Assembly (NCBI GenBank): GCA_017554105.1
Contig: JAFZIY010000022.1
Coordinates: forward strand, 1 to 34,294
Source: Prevotella sp.
Lineage (GTDB): Bacteria; Bacteroidota; Bacteroidia; Bacteroidales; Bacteroidaceae
Direction: 5' to 3'
DNA length: 34,294 nt
Of this stretch, positions 8,190 through 31,350 are shown one piece after another (within the stretch, counting starts at the first letter, position 1; each line of letters starts with the position of its first letter). Position numbers and translations under genes: made by a program. The notes beneath the pieces were generated by a model. That model saw nothing but the letters and a program-made list of their open reading frames with translations, was not told the origin of the DNA and ran no database searches.

Positions 8190-9062
8190 ATGAATAAGAA
8201 AATACTTATACCGCTCATTATAGTCATTGCACTGCTTATCGCGGGTGTCGCTTGGCTGGCAGTGAGCTTGAAAGAACAGAAGAAGGAAAATCAGGATATG
8301 CAGGAACTCGCCGAACTCGACAAGAAAGAGATGGAGAACGAGTACCAGCGTTTTGCAGAACAATATACTGAGATGAAGTCACGCATCAACAATGACTCCA
8401 TCGTAGCACAGTTGACGCGTGAGCAGTTGCGTACTCAGCAACTATTGAAGGAACTCAAGGCAGTCAAGGCTAACGATGCACGCGAGATTGCACGACTCAA
8501 GAAAGAACTTGCCACATGTAGGGCGGTAATAAGAAGTTATGTGCTTGAGATTGACTCACTCAATAGGTTGAACCAGAACCTCACAGAGGAGAATACACGT
8601 GTGAAAGGACAATATGAGGAGGCAACGCGCCAGATAGAAGGACTGAATGCTGACAAACAGACACTGACGGAGAAAGTTGCAATAGCTGCCCAGCTCGATG
8701 CTACTGCCATACAGATGTCAATGCTTGACAAGAAAGGAAAGCAGACAGAGAAGATGAATAAGGCAAAGCAGTTGAGAGTGTCGTTTAAGATTGCAAAGAA
8801 CGTTACTGCGACCAACGGCATTCGCACTCTTTATGTGCGTATAACTACACCTGCAGGAACAACACTTGGTAATGCCGGAACATTCCAGTATGAGAACCGA
8901 CAGTTGCAATGCACAATGAAGAAAGGCATTGAATATAGCGGTAATGAAACACCAGTTACACTTTATTATGACATCAACCAGTTCCTTGATGCAGGAAACT
9001 ATCAGGTAAGTATATTTGCTGACGGACAGATGATTGGCTCAAGAAGCGTTAGGTTTGAATGA
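8190..9062 (+). CDS. Membrane-anchored coiled-coil protein of unknown function
   Basis: The product is 290 residues. An N-terminal membrane anchor (residues about 5-27, ILIPLIIVIALLIAGVAWLA) is followed by a long, charged, heptad-like coiled coil (about 28-170, rich in Glu, Lys, Gln and Arg). A compact C-terminal domain (about 185-290) looks like a beta-sandwich (VSFKIAKNVTATNGIRTLYV, then VTLYYDINQFLDAGNYQVSI). The anchor type predicts a periplasm-facing protein. The ATG at 8190 is 41 bases downstream of a strong promoter, and the next gene starts 16 bases after the stop, so this is probably the first gene of the TolC-HlyD-permease operon. I do not recognise a named family; such proteins are often annotated loosely as SMC-like because of the coiled coil, which is not evidence of function. 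A periplasmic structural or scaffold role beside the exporter is a guess. Confidence 0.85.
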   Translation: MNKKILIPLIIVIALLIAGVAWLAVSLKEQKKENQDMQELAELDKKEMENEYQRFAEQYTEMKSRINNDSIVAQLTREQLRTQQLLKELKAVKANDAREIARLKKELATCRAVIRSYVLEIDSLNRLNQNLTEENTRVKGQYEEATRQIEGLNADKQTLTEKVAIAAQLDATAIQMSMLDKKGKQTEKMNKAKQLRVSFKIAKNVTATNGIRTLYVRITTPAGTTLGNAGTFQYENRQLQCTMKKGIEYSGNETPVTLYYDINQFLDAGNYQVSIFADGQMIGSRSVRFE

Positions 9063-9078
9063 AAAAGACAGAACAGCT

Positions 9079-10569
9079 ATGATTAAAATGTATAGGTTTT
9101 TGCTGCTGACAGTTTTGTCAATGTTATGCTGTCATGTCAATGCGCAGAAGGTGCTCACGTTAGAGGAGTGCCGCAGCATGGCATTGCAGAATAATAAGCA
9201 GCTGAATGTGGCACGTCTCGGTCAGGATGTGGCAGAGAACACGCGGAAGATAGCGCGTACGAAATATCTTCCGAGGGTAAGTGCCCTTGGCGGTTACGAA
9301 CTGACAAGCCGCGAGATATCATTGCTTAACGATGACCAAAAATCAGCATTGGACAATCTTGGATCTAATGCAGTTGGTAAAGCGGGAAATGCATTGACCG
9401 AGACACTGACAGGATTCGTGCAGAAGGGTGTTATTACTCCAGAGATGGCACAGTCGTTAGGTGGGTTGTTTAATGATCTGGCGACACCAGTGGCTCAGGC
9501 ATTTAATGGTTTGGGAAGTGATATCAGGAGGGCTTTCCGTACTAACAACCGTAATATGTTCGGGGCATCGGTCATGGTGACACAGCCTATTTACATGGGA
9601 GGTGCCATCACTGCTGCCAACCGCCTTGCCGACCTTCAGAAAGAACTTTCGGCAAATAAATATGAACTAGCACGCCAGACAACGCTATATGATATCGATC
9701 AGGCGTATTGGTTGGTCGTGTCGGTAAAGCACAAGGAACGCCTTGCACGCAACTATCTTGAACTGGTTAAGAAGTTTGACAGCGATGTTGAAAAGATGTT
9801 CAATGAGGGAGTGGCAACGCGTGCCGATGCTCTTCAGGTGAACGTGAAGGTGAACGAGGCAGAGATGCAGGTGTTGCAGGCAGAAGATGGTGTGGCACTT
9901 GCTAAGATGTTACTGTGCCAACTGTGTGGAATGCCGTGTGAGGAAGACATTACACTTGCCGACGAAGACAGTGAGAACCTTACATTGCCACTATATGATG
10001 AGGCAACGGGAGTGACGAAATACGACAATCGTCCGGAGATTCAGATGTTGCAGACGGCAGTGGACATGAGCAAGGCTTCTACGAAACTTGCACGCTCTGA
10101 GTATCTTCCTCAGGTAGCAATGACAGGAGGATACCTTCTCACTAACCCTAACGTTTATAACGGTTTCGAGAAGAAGTTCGCAGGAACATGGAATGTCGGA
10201 GTTCTAGTAAGGGTCCCAATATGGAACTGGAACGAGGGAACGTATAAGGTAAGGGCAACAAAGGCTGCAACACAGATAGCGCAGATGGAACTTGCCGATG
10301 CCACTGAGAAGATCTCGCTACAGGTAAGTCAGTGCCGGTTCAAGGTCAAGGAGGCTCACAGAAAGTATAATGTGGCAGTGAAGAATGTCGAAAAGGCAGA
10401 GGAAAACCTTCGTTGTGCCAACCTCGGATTTGCCGAGGGTGTGATGCAGACTTCTGATGTTATGGCAGCACAGACAGCGTGGATGCAGGCTGAGACAATG
10501 AAGGTTGAGGCTGAAATCGAGGCGCGACTCAGTGATGTGGCACTTAAGAAGGCTCTTGGTGAACTGTAA
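9079..10569 (+). CDS. TolC-family outer membrane efflux channel
   Basis: The product is 496 residues from the ATG at 9079. An upstream in-frame ATG at 9034 lies inside the previous gene and would put 15 hydrophilic residues ahead of the signal peptide (MIKMYRFLLLTVLSMLCCHVNAQ), so 9079 is preferred. After the signal come LTLEECRSMALQNNKQL, the standard TolC/OEP opening, and two repeated OEP halves; the second begins near YDNRPEIQMLQTAVDMSKAS. ARSEYLPQVAMTGGYLLTNP is typical of the strand-turn segment. The protein should form the trimeric outer membrane channel of a tripartite exporter with the HlyD adaptor encoded next. A stretch rich in small residues around 80-160 is longer than in E. coli TolC. 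Confidence in family is high; the substrate is unknown. Confidence 0.93.
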   Translation: MIKMYRFLLLTVLSMLCCHVNAQKVLTLEECRSMALQNNKQLNVARLGQDVAENTRKIARTKYLPRVSALGGYELTSREISLLNDDQKSALDNLGSNAVGKAGNALTETLTGFVQKGVITPEMAQSLGGLFNDLATPVAQAFNGLGSDIRRAFRTNNRNMFGASVMVTQPIYMGGAITAANRLADLQKELSANKYELARQTTLYDIDQAYWLVVSVKHKERLARNYLELVKKFDSDVEKMFNEGVATRADALQVNVKVNEAEMQVLQAEDGVALAKMLLCQLCGMPCEEDITLADEDSENLTLPLYDEATGVTKYDNRPEIQMLQTAVDMSKASTKLARSEYLPQVAMTGGYLLTNPNVYNGFEKKFAGTWNVGVLVRVPIWNWNEGTYKVRATKAATQIAQMELADATEKISLQVSQCRFKVKEAHRKYNVAVKNVEKAEENLRCANLGFAEGVMQTSDVMAAQTAWMQAETMKVEAEIEARLSDVALKKALGEL

Positions 10570-10603: not shown

Positions 10604-11590
10604 ATGTCAGTAAAGACGCAACATAACAATATTTTACTTGCCGTGCTCGGCTTGATTGTCGTTGTGGCAATAGTCGCCATCATCGGTTTATTCGCTTTCG
10701 GACATGCCGATGAGGAGATACAGGGTGAGGTTGAAGTAAGTGAATATAGAGTTTCAAGCAAGGTACCGGGGCGTATTCTTGAACTACGTGCCAAGGAAGG
10801 CGACTATGTCAAGGTCGGCGACACTCTTGCCATTCTTGATGCTCCTGAAGTAGAGGCTAAGATGACTCAGGCGCAGAGTGTGCAGAATGCGGCTGCTGCG
10901 ATGAGTGAGATGGCACAGAACGGAGCGCGTCATCAGCAGATACAAGGTGCTTACGAGTTGTGGCAGCAGGCAACGGCTGGACTTGAGATTGCCAAGAAAA
11001 GCTACGAGCGTGTGCAGCGACTCTATGACGAAGGTGTGATGAGTGCCCAGAAACGTGACGAGGCATTGGCTCAGTACAAGGCTCTCGAAGCACAGGCGAA
11101 GGCTGCCAAGAGCCAATATGACATGGCTGTCGAGGGTGCGCGTAAGGAAGAGAAGAAGGCTGCCGCAGCACAGGTAAACCAGGCACAGGGTGCCGTCCAG
11201 GAAGTTAGGTCGTACAAGCGAGAGCTTGTTCAGATAGCACAGATGGAGGGCGAGGTAAGCAATGTGTTCCCCAAGGTAGGTGAACTCGTCGGTACTGGCT
11301 CGCCAATCATGAATATATCTGTGATGAACGATATGTGGGGAACATTCAATGTGCGTGAGGACTTGCTTAAGGGAATGAAGGTGGGCGACATGATTACAGC
11401 CTACAGTCCGGCATTCGATAAAAACATAAAGTTGAAGGTTTTCTACATAAAGGATCAAGGTTCTTATGCCGTTTGGAAGGCAACCAAGAGCAACGGACAG
11501 TATGACCTCAAGACCTTTGAGGTGAAAGCACGTCCTGTTGAGAAGATTGACGGTCTGCGTCCAGGTATGTCATTGATAGTGAAGAAGTAA
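10604..11590 (+). CDS. HlyD-family periplasmic adaptor (membrane fusion protein)
   Basis: The product is 328 residues. One N-terminal membrane helix (about 8-30) leads into a biotinyl-lipoyl-like half-motif (EYRVSSKVPGRILELRAKEGDYVKVGDTLAILDAP, about 46-82), an alpha-hairpin with a long Ala/Gln/Lys-rich coiled coil (about 83-205), and the second lipoyl half plus beta-barrel (GEVSNVFPKVGELVGTGSPI onward). This is the classic membrane fusion protein order, bridging an inner-membrane pump and a TolC channel. It lies 34 bases after the TolC gene and 58 bases before the first permease. The overall design resembles YbhG/YhiI-type adaptors that work with ABC-2 permeases, which is an inference from family and context. 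Confidence 0.93.
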   Translation: MSVKTQHNNILLAVLGLIVVVAIVAIIGLFAFGHADEEIQGEVEVSEYRVSSKVPGRILELRAKEGDYVKVGDTLAILDAPEVEAKMTQAQSVQNAAAAMSEMAQNGARHQQIQGAYELWQQATAGLEIAKKSYERVQRLYDEGVMSAQKRDEALAQYKALEAQAKAAKSQYDMAVEGARKEEKKAAAAQVNQAQGAVQEVRSYKRELVQIAQMEGEVSNVFPKVGELVGTGSPIMNISVMNDMWGTFNVREDLLKGMKVGDMITAYSPAFDKNIKLKVFYIKDQGSYAVWKATKSNGQYDLKTFEVKARPVEKIDGLRPGMSLIVKK

Positions 11591-11648: not shown

Positions 11649-12830
11649 ATGTATAACAAGAGGAATCCTTTCTTGCGTATCCTAAGTGTGGCACGTCGCG
11701 AATGTGGCATATTGATGTCAACACCGATATACGCTTTCTGTATGGTGATATTCCCCATCTTCTGTGTGATATTCTTTACATCACTGATGGATGACGGACT
11801 GCCACAGGAGTTGCCTATCGGTATCGTTGACCTTGACAATAGCGCCACAACACGTTCCTTGATACGACGTCTCGATGGAATGCAGACCAGCCATGTAGTG
11901 GGGAAGTATGCCAATCCCGCGGAGGCTCGCAAGGCGATGCAGAAGAATGAGATATATGCGTTCCTCTATTTCCCTGAGGGTACTACTTCGGACCTCATGG
12001 CTCAGCGACAGCCAAAGATTTCTTTCTATTATAACAGTACGTCGCTGATGGCGGGAGCATTGCTCTTCCGCGATATGAAAACGGTGTGTACATTAGGTTC
12101 GGCAGCAGTGGGGCAGGCAACGATGCGTGCCCGTGGCTACACTGATGAGCAGATAGTCGCATTCTTGCAACCAATATCCATAGACTTGCACCTGCTGGGT
12201 AATCCGTGGGCCAACTACAATTTCTATCTCTCTGTGTTCATGATTCCGGGAGTACTGTTGCTTTTTGTATTGCTCATAACAGTCTATTCCATAGGTACGG
12301 AGGTGAAATTCAACCGCAGCAAGGTGCTCATGCGCCTTTCGGGTAATGATGTATGGGTGGCTATGTTAGGTAAGATGTTGCCTCAGACGCTCATCTCGTT
12401 AATCATTTTTTATGGTTACCTTTTCTATATATATGTCTTCCTCCATTTCCCACATCAGGGAGAATGGTATGAGATAGCACTCATCGGACTTCTCGCAGTC
12501 ATCGCGTCCCAGTCGTTCGGTATGTTCATATACGGACTGATGCCTTCGCTCCGAATGTCTATGAGTGTATGTTCGCTATGGGGAGTGCTCAGTTTCACCA
12601 TGTGTGGAGCGGCGTTTCCTGTGTTCTCTATGAATCCTATGCTGGAGGGTCTGTCGCTGCTCTTCCCGCTGCGCCATTACTATATGTTCTATCAGATATG
12701 CGTTTTCAATGGCTATCCAATTAGTGACGCATGGTTCAATCTGCTCGCTCTCTTCATCTTCATCTGTCTTCCTGTCTTCGTCATGAAGAACATCCGCAAG
12801 GCAATGCTTGAGTATGTTTACATTCCATAA
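11649..12830 (+). CDS. ABC-2 type transporter permease (first of two)
   Basis: The product is 393 residues with the topology of the ABC2_membrane_3 group. One N-terminal membrane helix (about residues 20-42, TPIYAFCMVIFPIFCVIFF) is followed by a ~150-residue extracytoplasmic domain (PIGIVDLDNSATTRSLIRRL... region) and five or so closely spaced helices (about 195-385). It would be the inner-membrane pore of a multidrug or lipid-like exporter working with the HlyD and TolC proteins encoded upstream. The second permease at 13336 is a paralogue with the same layout, so the two probably form a heterodimer as in YbhS/YbhR. No nucleotide-binding domain is fused to it. The ATPase must come from elsewhere, or the pair uses another energy source. 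Confidence 0.9.
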   Translation: MYNKRNPFLRILSVARRECGILMSTPIYAFCMVIFPIFCVIFFTSLMDDGLPQELPIGIVDLDNSATTRSLIRRLDGMQTSHVVGKYANPAEARKAMQKNEIYAFLYFPEGTTSDLMAQRQPKISFYYNSTSLMAGALLFRDMKTVCTLGSAAVGQATMRARGYTDEQIVAFLQPISIDLHLLGNPWANYNFYLSVFMIPGVLLLFVLLITVYSIGTEVKFNRSKVLMRLSGNDVWVAMLGKMLPQTLISLIIFYGYLFYIYVFLHFPHQGEWYEIALIGLLAVIASQSFGMFIYGLMPSLRMSMSVCSLWGVLSFTMCGAAFPVFSMNPMLEGLSLLFPLRHYYMFYQICVFNGYPISDAWFNLLALFIFICLPVFVMKNIRKAMLEYVYIP

Positions 12831-12839
12831 GGTGTGTGG

Positions 12840-12878
12840 GGAGTTATGGAGTTAAGGAGTTATGGAGTTAAGACAAAA
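12840..12878 (+). repeat. Left inverted-repeat arm of the intervening-sequence-like element
   Basis: This arm contains two perfect tandem copies of GGAGTTATGGAGTTAA followed by GACAAAA. It starts 9 bases after the first permease stop and ends 9 bases before the start of the enclosed gene. Confidence 0.85.
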
Positions 12879-12887
12879 GAATAATAT

Positions 12888-13271
12888 ATGATTGCAAAGA
12901 CAACGTTTAGCTTCGAAAACATAGTAGCATGGCAAAAAGCGCATGCTTTTGTGCTATCTGTCTATAGCATAACTAGACATTTCCCTGAAGAAGAGAAATA
13001 TGGGCTTACCTCCCAGTTCCGAAGAGCGGCGATTTCAATAGAGGCAAACATAGCCGAAGGGTATAAAAAACTGAGCAAGGCAGATAAACTCAGATTTCTT
13101 AACATTGCACAGGGAAGCCTCGAAGAATGTAGAGATTATATTATCTTATCAAGAGATTTATTATATATTAATGAAGAAGAGCAAAACATCCTATGTAATA
13201 ACATTGAGGCGGCGAGCAAACTCCTGAACGGATACAGCCGAGGAATATTGGACAATAACGCCATTAAATAA
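12888..13271 (+). CDS. Four-helix-bundle protein of the 23S rRNA intervening-sequence family (TIGR02436-like)
   Basis: The product is 127 residues, the usual size of this family. The diagnostic segment YGLTSQFRRAAISIEANIAE (about residues 41-60) is present, preceded by the FENIVAWQKAH opening and followed by GSLEECRDYIILSRDLLYIN. The fold is a four-helix bundle that forms pentamers and is related to Avd of diversity-generating retroelements; its function is not known, and binding to nucleic acid has been proposed. The gene interrupts an exporter operon and is flanked by inverted repeats 12840-12878 and 13287-13325. By eye it is more AT-rich than the permease genes on either side, which fits a separate origin. 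It has the same orientation as the operon and no promoter of its own is evident. Confidence 0.9.
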   Translation: MIAKTTFSFENIVAWQKAHAFVLSVYSITRHFPEEEKYGLTSQFRRAAISIEANIAEGYKKLSKADKLRFLNIAQGSLEECRDYIILSRDLLYINEEEQNILCNNIEAASKLLNGYSRGILDNNAIK

Positions 13272-13286
13272 TAAAAACAATAATGG

Positions 13287-13325
13287 TGTTGTCTTAACTC
13301 CTTAACTCCATAACCTCATAACTCC
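13287..13325 (+). repeat. Right inverted-repeat arm of the intervening-sequence-like element
   Basis: Read on the minus strand this is GGAGTTATGAGGTTATGGAG and so on to GACAACA, matching the left arm at 34 of 39 positions. It ends 10 bases before the second permease start, so a folded stem would bring the two permease genes close together. Confidence 0.85.
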
Positions 13326-13335
13326 ATAGATAAAA

Positions 13336-14577
13336 ATGTTCAAAAGACTGAGAGAAGGAATATACGATACCTGTTACATCTGGGTAAAGGAGATGCGCTC
13401 CGTCATAAGTGACGAGGGAGTGCTCATCTTCTTTATCCTTGTGCCTTTGTTTTATCCCTTGCTTTACTCATGGGCATACAATAACGAGGTGGCTCGCGAT
13501 GTTCCGGTGGCAGTTGTTGATTTCTCCAACGGCCAGACATCACGGCAGTTCATACGTCAATGCGACGCTTCACCCGATGTTAAGGTGGCATACAGATGTG
13601 CCTCTCTCGATGAGGCGAAGCAACTGGTGGGTCATCAGGTGGTGCGCGGAATTATATATATCCCTGCTGATTTCGACAACCGTCTTGGACGAATGGAACA
13701 GTCGAAAATCAGTCTTTTCTGCGACATGAGCATGATGCTTGCATACAAGGCAATATATTCCACTGCGATAGCAGTGTCACAAGACATGAATGCAGGTATC
13801 CAGGTGAAGCTCTCTAACAACTATACCGACCGCGAAGACGCTATCCTGACCAAACCACTTGACTTCCAGGAGGTGCAGATGTTCAATACAACAGGCGGTT
13901 ATGGAAACTTTATCCTGCCTTGTGTCCTTGTGCTTATTATACAGCAGACACTGCTTCTCGGCATTGGACTCAGTGCAGGTACCGCACGTGAGAACAACCG
14001 TTTCAAAGACCTCGTGCCAGTTAGCCGACACTATAACGGCATCTTCCGCATAGTATTCGGAAAATCTTTGTGCTACTTTATGATTTATGCTGTCATGGCA
14101 GCCTACGTCACTCTCGTCGTACCGCGAATCTTCGGCTTCATCAGCATACCGCAACCATCAGACCTTTTCGCGCTGATGTTGCCTTATGTGCTTGCATGTA
14201 TCTTCTTCGGAATGTTCATGTCGTGTCTCGTACGCTATCGTGAGAACGTCATATTGCTCGTAGTGTTCACCTCGCTTCCGTTCCTTTTCCTTGCCGGAAT
14301 CTCATGGCCTGAGACCAGTGTTCCTGCTGCATGGCGGGGCATTGCCTATCTCCTTCCTTCTACTTTCGGTGTTCGTGGTTTCGTGAGGATAAGCAGTATG
14401 GGTGCGACGCTTAACGATGTTACCCACGAGTATATGATGCTTTGGATTCAGGTGCTGGTATATTTCTTCGCCACCTGTATCGTTTACCGTTTCCAGTTGA
14501 TACAGACACGACGCCATGCTGTGGATAGAATCATATCCATCAAGCGCAAGGCAGAAAAACATAAGGCTTCAAGGTAA
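13336..14577 (+). CDS. ABC-2 type transporter permease (second of two)
   Basis: The product is 413 residues with the same plan as the permease at 11649. It has one N-terminal helix (about 29-48, GVLIFFILVPLFYPLLYSWA), a large extracytoplasmic domain opening with DVPVAVVDFSNGQTSRQFIR, and a block of membrane helices from about 195 to 400. The parallel motif 'GIVDLDNSATTRSLIRR' in the first permease shows that the two are paralogues. The protein ends in a basic cytoplasmic tail (IISIKRKAEKHKASR). It is the last gene of the operon and its stop codon lies inside the loop of a terminator hairpin. No ATP-binding subunit is encoded in the operon. A role in efflux of a drug, lipid or other hydrophobic compound follows from the family; the substrate is unknown. 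Confidence 0.9.
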   Translation: MFKRLREGIYDTCYIWVKEMRSVISDEGVLIFFILVPLFYPLLYSWAYNNEVARDVPVAVVDFSNGQTSRQFIRQCDASPDVKVAYRCASLDEAKQLVGHQVVRGIIYIPADFDNRLGRMEQSKISLFCDMSMMLAYKAIYSTAIAVSQDMNAGIQVKLSNNYTDREDAILTKPLDFQEVQMFNTTGGYGNFILPCVLVLIIQQTLLLGIGLSAGTARENNRFKDLVPVSRHYNGIFRIVFGKSLCYFMIYAVMAAYVTLVVPRIFGFISIPQPSDLFALMLPYVLACIFFGMFMSCLVRYRENVILLVVFTSLPFLFLAGISWPETSVPAAWRGIAYLLPSTFGVRGFVRISSMGATLNDVTHEYMMLWIQVLVYFFATCIVYRFQLIQTRRHAVDRIISIKRKAEKHKASR

Positions 14578-25252: not shown

Positions 25253-25310
25253 AACAAAGTTAATAACATAGTCGAACAAAGTTAATAAGATTGTTCAACA
25301 AAGTTAATAA
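25253..25310. repeat. Three tandem copies of a 14-base motif at 22-base spacing
   Basis: AACAAAGTTAATAA is repeated exactly at 25253-25266, 25275-25288 and 25297-25310, with similar 8-base spacers. The array lies between the TPR-operon terminator and the promoter of the M15 peptidase gene, about 150 bases upstream of the TAnnTTTG box. Next to it an inverted repeat TTTGATATG (25324-25332) and CATATCAAA (25349-25357) could form a hairpin. No gene was seen in the 377-base gap 25131-25507. Confidence 0.8.
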
Positions 25311-25458
25311 CATTGTTAAGCGGTTTGATATGAGTGGTGTTCCAAGAGCATATCAAATAGTTCCTCTGTCCCTTTTCTTTTGTTTGCCTTTTGTTGTTCT
25401 CTTATTCTTTAATTATGTGTTATTGTGGCTTTTATGATTGCAAATATATGCTTTTTTC

Positions 25459-26307: not shown

Positions 26308-29300
26308 ATGATGAAAAGGAGATTATTTGTATTTCTCTTCGCACTATTGTCACTGTCACAGGTGGCTAGGGCTGAAGAGGTAGCCATCGGTTCTGTCAGT
26401 GACTGGCAGGCGTTTGCCGCACGTGTCAATGCAGGAGAGAATGAGCTTGACGCATACCTGACTCAGGATGTTGACTTGGGCGACGACCAGACCATGGTGG
26501 GCACGTCAGAGTACAGATACAGGGGAAGGTTCAACGGACGTGGACACACGCTGACCATCCACTATATTGCCACAGAGGATGTGTGTGCACCGTTCCGCTA
26601 CACTACAGCCATGAAAATCACAGCACTTCATGTGGCAGGTACCATCAATACCGCCTATAAATATGCTGGTGGTATAGTGGGTAATACCTCTGCCGACGAT
26701 GGTCGCATAAATAACTGCCGCAGCAGTGTGGTCATCAATTCGTCAGTCAACGGCCTGGGCGGTCATGGTGGCTTTGTTGCGGATGAAGACTATAATAATA
26801 TTTACATTACAAACTGCCTGTTCGATGGAAGCATACAAACTACAGACGGTACCACTGATTGTGGTGGATTGATTGGTTACCACTGCCGTTATGTTTATAT
26901 GTATAACTGTCTCTATGCCCCTTCGGCAGAAGGTGTTAACAGTGGCGGAACCTTTGCTTATCCCACCACACCCGACTGGATTAACATTTATAATAGTTAC
27001 TACACTTCGACCATGGGTACCGTACAAGGTACTTCGGCTGCAGGGATGAGTGCAGAGGAACTGGCCAAGAAGTTAGGCGGTATGTGGGAGGTTGTTGACG
27101 GCAAACCCGTTCCCATCATGAGCCAGCGGCCGTTAAGCGGTAACGGCACAGAGGCTTCGCCCTATACCATCAGCAGCGTAACCGACTGGCAGAACTTCTG
27201 TTCAAACATCAACAACGGCGAGAGCTATAGCGGTAAGTATGTGGCAATGACTCAGGACGTGGATCTTGGTGACCTGCAAATCATGGCAGGAATGCCCGAA
27301 TTAGTATTGTCGGGAGACTATTTGATGCTTTTCTCATTTAAAGGCATATTTGATGGAAAAAATCACACGCTTACCGTGAACTATAAGTCAACAGAGAGTT
27401 ATTGTGCGCCATTCAAGTTCATTGAGGCAGCAACCATCAAGAACCTGCACACGGCCGGCACCATTGAGACCGGCCATCAGTTCTGTGGTGGAGTAGTTGC
27501 CGGTATAAGGGGAAACAATACCTCATCTACAATAGAAAACTGCCGCAGCAGTATCGTGCTCACGTCGTCAGTAAATGGTGACGGTACACATGGCGGCATC
27601 GTCGGAACACAAATAGGTTCTGGAGTAACTATAAATATCAAGAACTGCCTGTTCGACGGCAAGATGCTTACCACCAACGGTACCACCAACTGTGGCGGCA
27701 TCCTGGGCTATGTAGGATGGAGAGGCTCCATAGAAAACAGCGCCTACATACCTCAGACTCCGGCCGAGGGCGAGACACCCATCACCGCAGGCAGCAACAC
27801 CATCGGCCGTTATTATGTAGACAACAATCAAAGGCTGACGCTGACCAACTGCTACTATGGTGCCAAGATGGAGACATTGCAGGGCGACCCCATTGCCCGA
27901 AGCATAACAGGCGACGAGGGAATCAGTGTGACAATCCCCGACCAACAGAAAGTAACTGTCTGTGGGGAGAGTTTCTATCCGTCGGGAACAATGGTAGAGC
28001 TGGCCTATAGCGGCACGGAGCCGTTCAACCATTACGAGGTGAACAATGGTGCCATCAGCAATGTCTTCACGCCAGGCGGAAGTCATACGCTGACAGACAT
28101 TTATGGTGATGTGATTATCTTTATGAGCACAGAGGAGATTGAGCGTGAGATGTATATCTCCTATGACGGCCAGGTTGCCACTTATTACTACGACAACCAG
28201 CGTGCGAGTCATGCATATACCAGTGACCCCAACAGGAGGGAAAACGGTTGTCCTGTACCGCCAGATGGTGTAGAGTCACCCAACAAGGTGGTCATCGACC
28301 CGTCGATGGCCGACGCCCGTCCTGTGATGGAGACTGGCGGAATGTTCTTCTTTGGTGTCATATCGTCATCTGACAAATACTATGTACAAGAGATAGAAGG
28401 TCTCGAATACCTTAACACCAGCGAGTCGGTAAATATGGAGGGAATGTTCAATTACTGCAGGGTGAAGTCACTCGACCTGAGCCATTTCGACACTCGCAAG
28501 GTCACCAATATGCAGTTGATGTTTAACCACTGTACAGAACTGAAAGACGTTGAGTTCGGCGACAACTTCAACACCGAGAATGTCACGAACATGTGGGTAA
28601 TGTTCAACAATTGTAGTAAGTTGGAGAACCTCGACCTGAGCAGTTTCAACACCGCTAAGGTTACCGACATGGGTGAAATGTTCGCCAATTGCAGCAACCT
28701 GAAAAACCTCGACCTAAGCAGCTTCAACACCACTCTGGTTACAGACATGCATGAAATGTTCGCCAACTGCGGCAACCTCACTACGGTTGTCGTGGGCAGC
28801 GGCTGGACCGTTGCAAACGTGACGTCGGGAAAGGGAATTATTGACTATTGCGAGAGCCTCGTTGGTGGCAAGGGGTCTTCCATGCAAACGTATGGAGTAA
28901 GACCAAGCGGACTTACCTATTGCCACATCGATGGCGGCACGGAAGACCCGGGCTATTTCTGGAGCATTGATGACATGACACGTCAGACGTATGCAGCTTA
29001 CGACAGCAGCAATGAGACACTCTATTTCTGCAACGACTACTGGAAAGGCAAACGCGGCAGCACTACCACCTGCTATGACCTGCCTACCACACGTGGCATT
29101 ACACCATGGTATGAAAAGCACGAGAACGTCAAGGTTGTGAAGTTTATGCTTGATTTTGCCGACGCTCGTCCTGTTACCACCTTTGAGTGGTTCGATGACA
29201 TGACGTCGCTGCAAACCATCGAAGGAATTGAATACCTGAACACCAGCGAGGTGACCGATATGTCGGGCATGTTCTTTTCATGCGAGGCTCTGCAAAGCAT

Positions 29301-31350
29301 CGACTTCAGCCACTTCGACACCAGGAAGGTGAAAGACATGTCGACTATGTTCAGCAACTGCGAGCAACTAAAAGAACTCGACCTGAGCAGCTTCAACACT
29401 GGCAGCGTTACCAACATGCGCGCCATGTTCTCCGACTGCAGTAACCTCAAGAGTCTCGACGTCAGCAGTTTCAACACCGTAAACGTCACCAACATGTACC
29501 GCATGTTCGATGGGTGCAAGAAACTGGAAGAACTCGACGTGTGCCGCTTCAACACCGCCAAGGTCGACACGCTGGAAATGATGTTCCAAGACTGCGCCAG
29601 CCTGAAGGCGATCGACGTTAGCGGCTTCAACACTGCCAACTCCACCCGCATGCAAAAAATGTTCAGCGGTTGCTCCAGCGTGACTGAGCTCGACGTCAGC
29701 GGCTTCAACACCGCCAAGGCGATATGGATGAACCATATGTTCTACGGATGCTCAAGCTTGACCGAGCTCGACGTCAGCGGCTTCAACACCGGTGCATGCC
29801 GCAATCTGTCATACATGTTCCAGAATTGCAAGAAACTGACGGAAATAGATGTCAGCAACTTCAATACGTCAAACGTGACCACGCTCGCCAATATGTTCTA
29901 TGGGTGTTCCTCTATAACAGAAATCGACCTGGGCAGTTTCGAAACAAGTAATGTGACATCGATGGGAAGCATGTTCTATGGGTGCTCCAACCTGAAGACC
30001 ATCTATGCCAGCGAAGAATTCGTCACAACCAAAGTGAACACCCAGTATGGCGGCACCGACATGTTCAAGGGCTGCACCTCCATCGTGGGCGGTAACGGCA
30101 CCCCCTACCAGGGCGACTCGTTTGAGACGCACAGCTATGCCCGCATCGATGGTGTCGACAACAAGAAAGGCTACTTCACCGATTTCGACTCGAAGAGCTA
30201 TGCCGTTTACGACGAAACCACCCATACGCTGTCGTTCTATGGTGACAACAAGCGCGACGAGCACACCGATGGAACCATTTTAAGCCTCTCTGATATCTAC
30301 AACGGTGGTACCGACCACCATCAGGCTTGGGAGCGCGTGGTGTTCGACACATCGTTCGCAAAGTCAAAGCCGAAGGCTGTGGCAGCGTGGTTCGCCGACT
30401 GCACATCGCTGAAAGAGATCGTCGGTATGGAGAACCTGAACCTTGCGAAGGTGACCGACGTGGGATACCTGTTCTATAACTGCTCGGCCCTCGACTTGCT
30501 CGACCTCAGCAAGCTCGACCTCAGCAAGGCCGAAATCAAGTACTACATGTTCGTGGGCCTCAACCCCGACTGCGTGCTCTATCTGCCAAGCGGCACCAAG
30601 GCATCCGATTTCGAGGGCGAGGGACTGACAGTCGGCGGCCTGGAACATCCCGCCTACAACCTTGTGCTCGATGAAGACGGCGACGGACAGTACACCTGTG
30701 CCGACCTGCGCCTGAAAGACGGCAAAGACTACCTGTATCCCATCGTCACGCCGTTCCATGCCGACAAGGTGACTTACCAGCGCACGTTCACCGGCGGCGT
30801 TCGCGCCACCGTCTACCTGCCCTTCGCATTCGATGCCACACTGTTCGGAAAGATATACGACTACGACGGACAGCTGACGGGGACGGCCATACGTTTCTAT
30901 CCCGTCAGTGCGCCAACCACCACGGCCAACACTCCGTACATCATCGACCCGAACGGTACGCAGATTGAAGCGCAGAATGTTGATGTGGTGGCAACATGTG
31001 ACACCAAGCCAACTGGTGCCAATGAGATGATTGGTGTATGTCGCAGGGGAGTTGTGCCTGTAGGTGCTTATTGCTTCGATGCCACCAATGGTACACTGAA
31101 GCGTGTGACAGCCAACAGCGGTGTCGTGTACATCTCTGCATTCAGAGCCTATTTCTTGTTGCCTTCTATAGACGCTGCCGATAGCAAGGTCATAGAAACA
31201 TTCTTCGACGACACACCAACAGCAATCACCATACCAGATGCTGTAACTACAGAGGAAGAGTGGTACACCGTGAATGGCCAACGCCTTCCTGGTCGTCCTA
31301 ACAAGAAAGGCATATATATTGTTAACGGCAGGAAATATGTGGTAAAGTAA
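26308..31350 (+). CDS. BspA-like giant surface protein with DUF285 leucine-rich repeats
   Basis: The product is 1680 residues with a signal peptide (MMKRRLFVFLFALLSLSQVARA). Residues about 24-275 and 280-530 are two copies of a beta-helix-like module (VSDWQAFAARVNAGE / VTDWQNFCSNINNGE; AGGIVG / CGGVVAG; NNCRSS / ENCRSS; NCLFDG in both). DUF285 repeats of about 24 residues (xLDLSSFNTxxVTDMxxMFxxC) follow: about five at 698-825, ten at 964-1235 and a short run at 1366-1410. The clusters are separated by AYDxxTxTLxFYxDxKR linkers. The C-terminus ends in a WYTVNGQRLPGRPNKKGIYI tail like that of the protein at 36-4313. In BspA of Tannerella such repeats bind fibronectin and other cells; adhesion is therefore a family-based inference. 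An 84-residue peptide gene follows 21 bases later. Confidence 0.92.
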   Translation: MMKRRLFVFLFALLSLSQVARAEEVAIGSVSDWQAFAARVNAGENELDAYLTQDVDLGDDQTMVGTSEYRYRGRFNGRGHTLTIHYIATEDVCAPFRYTTAMKITALHVAGTINTAYKYAGGIVGNTSADDGRINNCRSSVVINSSVNGLGGHGGFVADEDYNNIYITNCLFDGSIQTTDGTTDCGGLIGYHCRYVYMYNCLYAPSAEGVNSGGTFAYPTTPDWINIYNSYYTSTMGTVQGTSAAGMSAEELAKKLGGMWEVVDGKPVPIMSQRPLSGNGTEASPYTISSVTDWQNFCSNINNGESYSGKYVAMTQDVDLGDLQIMAGMPELVLSGDYLMLFSFKGIFDGKNHTLTVNYKSTESYCAPFKFIEAATIKNLHTAGTIETGHQFCGGVVAGIRGNNTSSTIENCRSSIVLTSSVNGDGTHGGIVGTQIGSGVTINIKNCLFDGKMLTTNGTTNCGGILGYVGWRGSIENSAYIPQTPAEGETPITAGSNTIGRYYVDNNQRLTLTNCYYGAKMETLQGDPIARSITGDEGISVTIPDQQKVTVCGESFYPSGTMVELAYSGTEPFNHYEVNNGAISNVFTPGGSHTLTDIYGDVIIFMSTEEIEREMYISYDGQVATYYYDNQRASHAYTSDPNRRENGCPVPPDGVESPNKVVIDPSMADARPVMETGGMFFFGVISSSDKYYVQEIEGLEYLNTSESVNMEGMFNYCRVKSLDLSHFDTRKVTNMQLMFNHCTELKDVEFGDNFNTENVTNMWVMFNNCSKLENLDLSSFNTAKVTDMGEMFANCSNLKNLDLSSFNTTLVTDMHEMFANCGNLTTVVVGSGWTVANVTSGKGIIDYCESLVGGKGSSMQTYGVRPSGLTYCHIDGGTEDPGYFWSIDDMTRQTYAAYDSSNETLYFCNDYWKGKRGSTTTCYDLPTTRGITPWYEKHENVKVVKFMLDFADARPVTTFEWFDDMTSLQTIEGIEYLNTSEVTDMSGMFFSCEALQSIDFSHFDTRKVKDMSTMFSNCEQLKELDLSSFNTGSVTNMRAMFSDCSNLKSLDVSSFNTVNVTNMYRMFDGCKKLEELDVCRFNTAKVDTLEMMFQDCASLKAIDVSGFNTANSTRMQKMFSGCSSVTELDVSGFNTAKAIWMNHMFYGCSSLTELDVSGFNTGACRNLSYMFQNCKKLTEIDVSNFNTSNVTTLANMFYGCSSITEIDLGSFETSNVTSMGSMFYGCSNLKTIYASEEFVTTKVNTQYGGTDMFKGCTSIVGGNGTPYQGDSFETHSYARIDGVDNKKGYFTDFDSKSYAVYDETTHTLSFYGDNKRDEHTDGTILSLSDIYNGGTDHHQAWERVVFDTSFAKSKPKAVAAWFADCTSLKEIVGMENLNLAKVTDVGYLFYNCSALDLLDLSKLDLSKAEIKYYMFVGLNPDCVLYLPSGTKASDFEGEGLTVGGLEHPAYNLVLDEDGDGQYTCADLRLKDGKDYLYPIVTPFHADKVTYQRTFTGGVRATVYLPFAFDATLFGKIYDYDGQLTGTAIRFYPVSAPTTTANTPYIIDPNGTQIEAQNVDVVATCDTKPTGANEMIGVCRRGVVPVGAYCFDATNGTLKRVTANSGVVYISAFRAYFLLPSIDAADSKVIETFFDDTPTAITIPDAVTTEEEWYTVNGQRLPGRPNKKGIYIVNGRKYVVK

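Follow-up and report, generated by a model that had tools for sequence, protein, structure and literature searches.

The 0.5-kb unit described here, lying in the window (the whole stretch of 34,294 nucleotides of Prevotella sp. DNA that was analyzed), is probably a minimal mobile DNA element of the S23p/intervening-sequence (IVS) kind, an interpretation drawn from sequence comparison. It is made of one IVP gene and of two inverted terminal arrays. Each array has four short direct repeats, of which three are degenerate on the right side. The unit occupies the space between two operon genes, with its gene in sense orientation. The comparison of close plasmids shows that a relative of this element inserted as mobile DNA, and the evidence for DNA insertion in these plasmid relatives is good. 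For the window copy, we infer insertion from its structure, from gene-less kin in the same genome, and from the empty junctions of distant relatives.

The unit between the two permease genes

The features of the unit and of the operon around it are collected in Table 1. The original prediction of a 127-residue IVP gene within 39-base inverted repeats is confirmed by the complementarity of the arms and by the matches to both protein families, which are well over the curated cut-offs (128.5 vs 33.8 bits for PF05635 and 118.4 vs 24 bits for TIGR02436). Also, the left arm is indeed the perfect tandem pair that had been described.

Table 1. Positions in the window of the arms and gene of the unit, the surrounding operon genes, and the candidate target duplication
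Feature	Position	Strand	Basis or remark
TolC-type outer-membrane efflux gene, same operon	9034..10569	+	PF02321 E 7.6e-59
HlyD-type adaptor gene, same operon	10604..11590	+	PF16576 E 9.2e-11
Upstream ABC2-type permease gene	11649..12830	+	PF12698 E 9.8e-44
Candidate left target-duplication copy CCATA (hypothetical)	12825..12829	+	overlaps permease stop codon
Left inverted arm	12840..12878	+	repeat comparison
Exact tandem pair of 16-mer GGAGTTATGGAGTTAA	12840-12871	+	equals four 8-nt units GGAGTTAW
IVP/S23p four-helix-bundle gene, 127 aa	12888..13271	+	PF05635 E 1.5e-37; TIGR02436 E 1.5e-34
Right inverted arm	13287..13325	+	degenerate units TAACTCCA; 34/39 complementary to left arm
Candidate right target-duplication copy CCATA (hypothetical)	13324..13328	+	overlaps end of right arm
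Downstream second ABC2-type permease gene	13336..14577	+	PF12698 E 9.7e-56

A longer alignment of the arms extends over 46 nt, with 38/46 positions matching, and the pair comes first in a list of 20 inverted pairs from the entire window that are spaced by up to 1.5 kb. Its flank-against-flank score is 54; flanks taken from different loci of different genomes give a median of 18, with the 99th percentile at 36. The unit fills the gap between the two permease genes, behind the TolC- and HlyD-type genes, and is not inside an rRNA gene; as in an IVS, complementary ends enclose the S23p ORF. Moreover, short tandem 8-nt units precede the S23p start, as the heptamers do in the Coxiella element, a feature that is not known to be general among IVSs.

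No known transposase or other nuclease was detected in the unit, where Pfam gives only the IVP match and weak bAvd matches. The Rfam scan of the window returned one match, far under the gathering score and on the opposite strand of the second permease. Tandem repeats of other kinds are also present in the window: 78-nt repeats at 28566-29791, inside a 1680-aa ORF (26308-31350) that probably encodes a repeat-rich surface protein, and a 22-nt AT-rich repeat in three copies at 25253-25317, between genes.

Paired arms around other IVP genes

Two sets of loci were compared. Set 1 comprises 72 loci, being the 7 IVP genes over the cut-off in this genome and 65 of the 82 over-cut-off PF05635 matches in 39 relatives; the remaining 17 matches of the relatives, all below 70 bits, were left out (L073, also below, was kept), together with three sub-cut-off matches of this genome. 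Set 2 comprises the best 80 of 550 relatives from a scan with the subfamily of the window gene itself. According to the record titles, nearly all of these are from Bacteroidales, mostly Prevotella or Prevotellaceae, with two labeled only as Bacteroidetes and one as Candidatus Minthosoma. Two loci of set 2 coincide with loci of set 1 (L215 with L059, and L217 with L058); they are included in the counts for arms, orientation, stop distance, duplication, and mismatches, but are excluded from the hairpin stability analysis. For the arm score, the right flank was reverse-complemented and aligned to the left flank, and the best alignment was taken, with a threshold of 30.

The arms expected around other copies of the gene family are present in both sets. 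In set 1 the median arm score is 43, compared with 18 for flanks of different loci and genomes, and 46/72 loci exceed the 99th percentile of the latter. The threshold is reached by 55/72 loci of set 1, leaving 17/72 below it, and by only 4/265 control ORFs, which were taken from 400 kb of this genome. Two of these four are Y1 (IS200-type) transposase genes, L125 (8384-8923) and L131 (2830-3285), with strong inverted repeats of their own on both sides. For set 2, as the best 80 of 550 relatives, the median is 56, with 76/80 loci at or above the threshold and 4/80 below; here the unit is so widely shared within the subfamily that 30% of mismatched flank pairs reach the threshold too.

The best period in the 55 arm pairs of set 1 is 7 or 8 nt in 32 cases and 14 or 16 nt in 13, and the arms of set 2 typically have about four GGAGTTA-like units, often with an inner end such as GACAATAG. 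At several loci a small hairpin, with a TTCG loop in several of them, interrupts both arms (L177, L197, L198, L204, and L212 in set 2; L079 and L104 in set 1). Moreover, protein identity and arm similarity are correlated across genomes (rho 0.23 for 55 loci, with 0.08 as the largest value in 500 permutations). The unit of the window is also found at four other places of the same genome, corresponding to three gene-less hairpins (L014, L015, and L020), which have open frames in the same direction on both sides, and to one array on a single strand (L011).

Filled and empty sites in plasmids

At site 1, an IVP element has inserted into an otherwise intact transfer operon of conjugative cyanobacterial plasmids from Trichormus variabilis and Scytonema. 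The site is empty in records from Microchaete, Nostoc linckia, Aulosira, and Nostoc carneum, whose identity is 97.5-97.9% across the 82% of the query that aligns. Empty records have a single GTAAT, at the upstream stop codon, and filled records have two, a clear target duplication of 4-5 bp; if the element begins with TAAATCAG, as another copy suggests, the duplication would be GTAA. Four more distant records (H40-H43) are likewise shorter across this site, by 337-435 nt according to the alignment coordinates, which indicates that presence of the element is the derived state. Derivatives of the element are found here as well, namely a truncated copy in Nostoc C052 and a gene-less hairpin in Brasilonema (plasmid pBOCT2, L226), the latter with arms of the type that the complete elements in Trichormus and Scytonema have at this site.

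Three further filled and empty comparisons are provided by sites 2-4. At site 2, in Nostoc plasmids, TTCTA is found at both ends when the site is filled and once when it is empty. This is ambiguous because an element at a different site (L231) ends identically, so the letters may be the element's own end. At site 3, an IVP of another subfamily, with other arms, is accompanied by an imperfect duplication (TAATG/TTATG), also ambiguous. Site 4 corresponds to a copy at the cas10 stop codon on a plasmid of Picosynechococcus PCC 7003, with the gene between cas10 and cmr3, that is missing in PCC 7002. Also, of three related operons in Nostoc ATCC 53789, one has an element between genes A and B, another has it between B and C, and the third has none. 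In these comparisons, the difference between near-identical plasmids is the complete unit with its arms, which supports the alternative of a selfish DNA element raised in the original prediction.

A shared 5-mer test for target duplication at 121 Bacteroidales loci of the two sets gave 28 cases vs 25.1 expected, suggesting that duplications at these loci have been lost or blurred, or are absent; the test was not significant at 4, 5, or 7 bp and gave p 0.04 at 6 bp. Concerning the vehicle, phages were rejected as carriers of the element after a search that gave no match in 50,697 phage records and a single relative in viral contigs.

The permease junction in relatives

Permease 1 was found in 23/39 other genomes searched, at 26 places. 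The IVP core motif, present in the window, is on the permease strand in 0/26 of these loci, and the second permease follows the first directly in 25/26. Thus, comparing exporter operons, as had been proposed, reveals that the two permeases are adjacent without the unit. The one exception (L042, in relative G021) has a repeat-bearing spacer with no IVP gene and no second permease in the part read; this spacer, behind permease 1, holds two direct copies of a stretch of about 120 nt with short repeats and a TTCG-type hairpin. The closest relative shares 64% permease identity, and thus the ancestral junction of the window copy is not exactly readable; its insertion would follow from the empty junctions of these distant relatives.

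Placement in operons

The orientation of neighboring genes, called crudely from the longest open frames, is biased toward the sense direction. In set 1 both neighbors are sense in 57/72 loci, 9 loci are mixed, 6 have one side uncalled, and none has both antisense. The corresponding values for set 2 are 56/80, 19, 3, and 2 (L164 and L186). Among ordinary genes of this genome, 134/252 are sense-sense and 19/252 antisense-antisense; against this background the lack of antisense neighbors has a p of 0.002 for set 1 and 0.07 for set 2, and it is far stronger against an even split. In a raw tally without control genes, an upstream stop codon is near the left arm in 124/131 loci, at a median of 8 nt before the arm.

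One junction recurs. In 19/80 loci of set 2 the element lies behind etfA, in most or all of them before an acyl-CoA dehydrogenase gene. This junction was surveyed in 70 of the 109 family genomes with the dehydrogenase: 3 have the element, 36 a gap of less than 60 nt, and 7 something else, whereas 24 were uncallable because the etfA pattern missed some true junctions. The junction (e.g., L203, L218, L239, and L247) is likely an insertion hot spot, filled in many Bacteroidales species and empty in others. Among loci whose dehydrogenase N-termini are 87-97% identical, the IVP proteins at this site are 50-80% identical. This divergence suggests repeated insertion, and a fast-evolving IVP gene would fit it too.

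RNA stem or DNA ends

The original prediction placed the activity of the unit at the RNA level: the arms would pair in the exporter mRNA, RNase III would cut the stem, the operon would be split or regulated, and the stem would be under selection. Part of this holds, since the sense RNA of the unit can form a stem (folding z of -5.9). The elements are placed in the sense direction in operons, and the Coxiella 23S IVS is described as excised by RNase III in the available part of PMC4990558. However, the antisense strand folds as well (z of -6.3).

If a stem in the sense RNA were selected, mismatches between the arms should be G-U rather than A-C. The summed mismatches compatible and incompatible with sense pairing are 62 vs 65 in set 1 and 71 vs 122 in set 2, so that the proposed check on covariation of the arms revealed no bias toward sense pairing. 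Counted by locus, the excess in set 1 is toward the stem in 22 loci vs 12 against (p 0.12), whereas in set 2 only 13 loci are for the stem and 42 against (p 1e-4). Moreover, the stability of arm hairpins does not favor the sense strand in set 1 (p 0.94), and in set 2 the sense-strand hairpins are the weaker ones (46 vs 18 loci, p 0.003). The arm mismatches of set 1 also include 73 purine-purine and 36 pyrimidine-pyrimidine cases. Selection on a sense-RNA stem is therefore supported neither by the mismatch asymmetry nor by folding, and the claim of a long stem under selection stands only for the capacity to form it. Taken together, the mismatch and folding results favor reading the arms as DNA ends, which would fit them better than a stem in mRNA; an intervening sequence acting at the RNA level appears unlikely.

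Slippage and reverse transcription

Another explanation would be that the arrays arise spontaneously by slippage and that IVP genes are ordinary small operon genes of the host, located between two arrays by chance. Arrays without the gene do occur. The 400-kb sample of this genome has 12 further short arrays, of which 9/12 lack an inverted partner above the 95% chance level, and this weakens the claim that an array alone marks an element. Also, in relative G014 (L023), a gene-less tandem 7-nt array (GGAATGAGGAATGTG...) occupies the spacer between the two permease genes, and heptamer arrays are described in cyanobacteria, Bacteroidetes, and Beggiatoaceae (PMC4679880, available part). Nonetheless, chance pairing does not account for arms that match within a locus far above control flanks, nor for near-identical plasmids that differ by the entire unit, and the copies broken by stops (L086, L200, and L243) suggest no steady need of the host for the gene. 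This makes slippage around a host gene quite improbable, somewhat more so than the RNA-level explanation.

A retroelement helped in trans, where the IVP protein, like the related Avd, would work with a reverse transcriptase copying the transcript back into DNA, is the least probable reading and a very improbable one: the weak similarity to Avd (NF033474, 32.2 bits; bAvd, E 3.8e-5) and the mostly sense placement are in line with it, but the Avd-type models remain under their cut-offs (24.6 of 40 bits for bAvd and 32.2 of 80 for NF033474), and four IVP-rich genomes (G004, G007, G008, and G019, with 4 to 8 over-cut-off IVP genes and 90-99% completeness) have no RVT_1 match, so that a reverse transcriptase is seemingly not required and was rejected as the mover. 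No reverse transcriptase lies beside the window gene, the only RVT_1 match of this genome being on contig C29 and the window on C20.

Comparison with known elements

The closest known system is the IVS in the 23S rRNA of Coxiella, which in the available part of PMC4990558 is described as a 428-nt sequence that is closed by a terminal stem of 28 bp and carries an S23p gene together with tandem heptamers, the copy number of which differs among strains. The window unit resembles it in size, in its complementary ends, in the S23p/IVP gene between them, and in the tandem repeats before the gene, which bears out the prediction that the layout of an rRNA intervening sequence is kept outside rRNA. The two differ in that the window unit is between two protein genes of an operon and not in rRNA, in that sense-RNA pairing is not favored by the evolution of the arms, and in that insertion is visible in plasmid relatives. 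In the view of the Coxiella authors, as given in the same part of the text, the S23p protein is not produced in vivo; Ralph and McClelland, as cited there, had proposed in 1993 that such elements are mobile.

Two other kinds of repeat-bearing elements share part of this organization. BrickBuilt, a miniature inverted-repeat element of Porphyromonas gingivalis, is also short and intergenic, with tandem repeats and inverted ends. In the part of PMC4596501 available, it appears as a gene-less MITE with a 23-nt unit inside small inverted ends, whereas in the window element the arrays are the ends and the gene lies between them. Single-gene elements of the REP/IS200 type, with a Y1 transposase and palindromes, likewise have one small gene with inverted repeats, but the window gene is not a Y1 transposase.

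The arrays themselves recall the heptamer arrays of cyanobacteria, Bacteroidetes, and Beggiatoaceae, which are made of 7-nt tandem units, exact or degenerate, located next to genes or between them, and for which no means of spreading is known according to the available part of PMC4679880. They also recall the heptamers in P6b of the Nostoc tRNA-Leu intron, likewise tandem 7-nt units, which pair into a hairpin (PMC3488679, available part). In the portions of both papers available, no IVP gene is reported alongside, and the tie to S23p elements is one that we infer. At the protein level, the accessory protein Avd/bAvd of diversity-generating retroelements (NF033474, PF22296) is weakly related to IVP, below the model cut-offs.

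IVP genes outside the context studied here have been noted in rRNA insertions of CPR bacteria (PMC11270868) and between guanylate kinase and nucleotide adenylyltransferase genes, in a table of phage-like genes (PMC5524665), both as given in the available parts of these reports. A search by title and abstract found no literature on S23p elements that reside in operons, have paired arrays, and can be compared with empty sites; most subscription journals are outside its coverage, so this is weak evidence of novelty.

Proposed mechanism and implications

For the minimal mobile DNA element proposed here, the IVP protein probably binds the repeat ends. In this scheme, it would recognize the DNA of the repeat units at either end of the element and bring the two ends together, with cutting and joining being an activity of the IVP protein or of the host. 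The solved relatives 2gsc and 2rld have five chains each, and the S23p protein of X. campestris forms, according to the available part of PMC4990558, a ring of five four-helix bundles; a five-chain ring might suit arms of about four units. Sense placement would allow the IVP gene to be expressed from the host operon, and an S23p-bearing IVS of 23S rRNA would represent an insertion of the same element into rRNA.

A broader and more tentative proposal, which we regard as possible but rather doubtful, is that S23p elements are their own class of minimal DNA transposons. In such a class, a ring-shaped four-helix-bundle protein would recognize terminal repeat arrays that drift together with it, would move them without a known transposase type, and would prefer the stop-start junctions of expressed operons. 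The 23S rRNA IVSs, the gene-less hairpins, and perhaps some cyanobacterial heptamer repeats would then be its traces.

The nature and spread of S23p intervening sequences is a long-standing question. Here, the IVS layout is seen in an element that inserts as DNA into ordinary operons, in two phyla, and that has exact empty sites. Its repeats track the protein, derivatives without the gene exist, and one junction is filled in many species. Moreover, operon-borne elements make the spread of S23p directly testable. Insertion may also explain the IVP genes reported in CRISPR-cas loci, as described in the available parts of PMC3936711 and PMC10910872, considering that the copy between cas10 and cmr3 is missing in a close relative.
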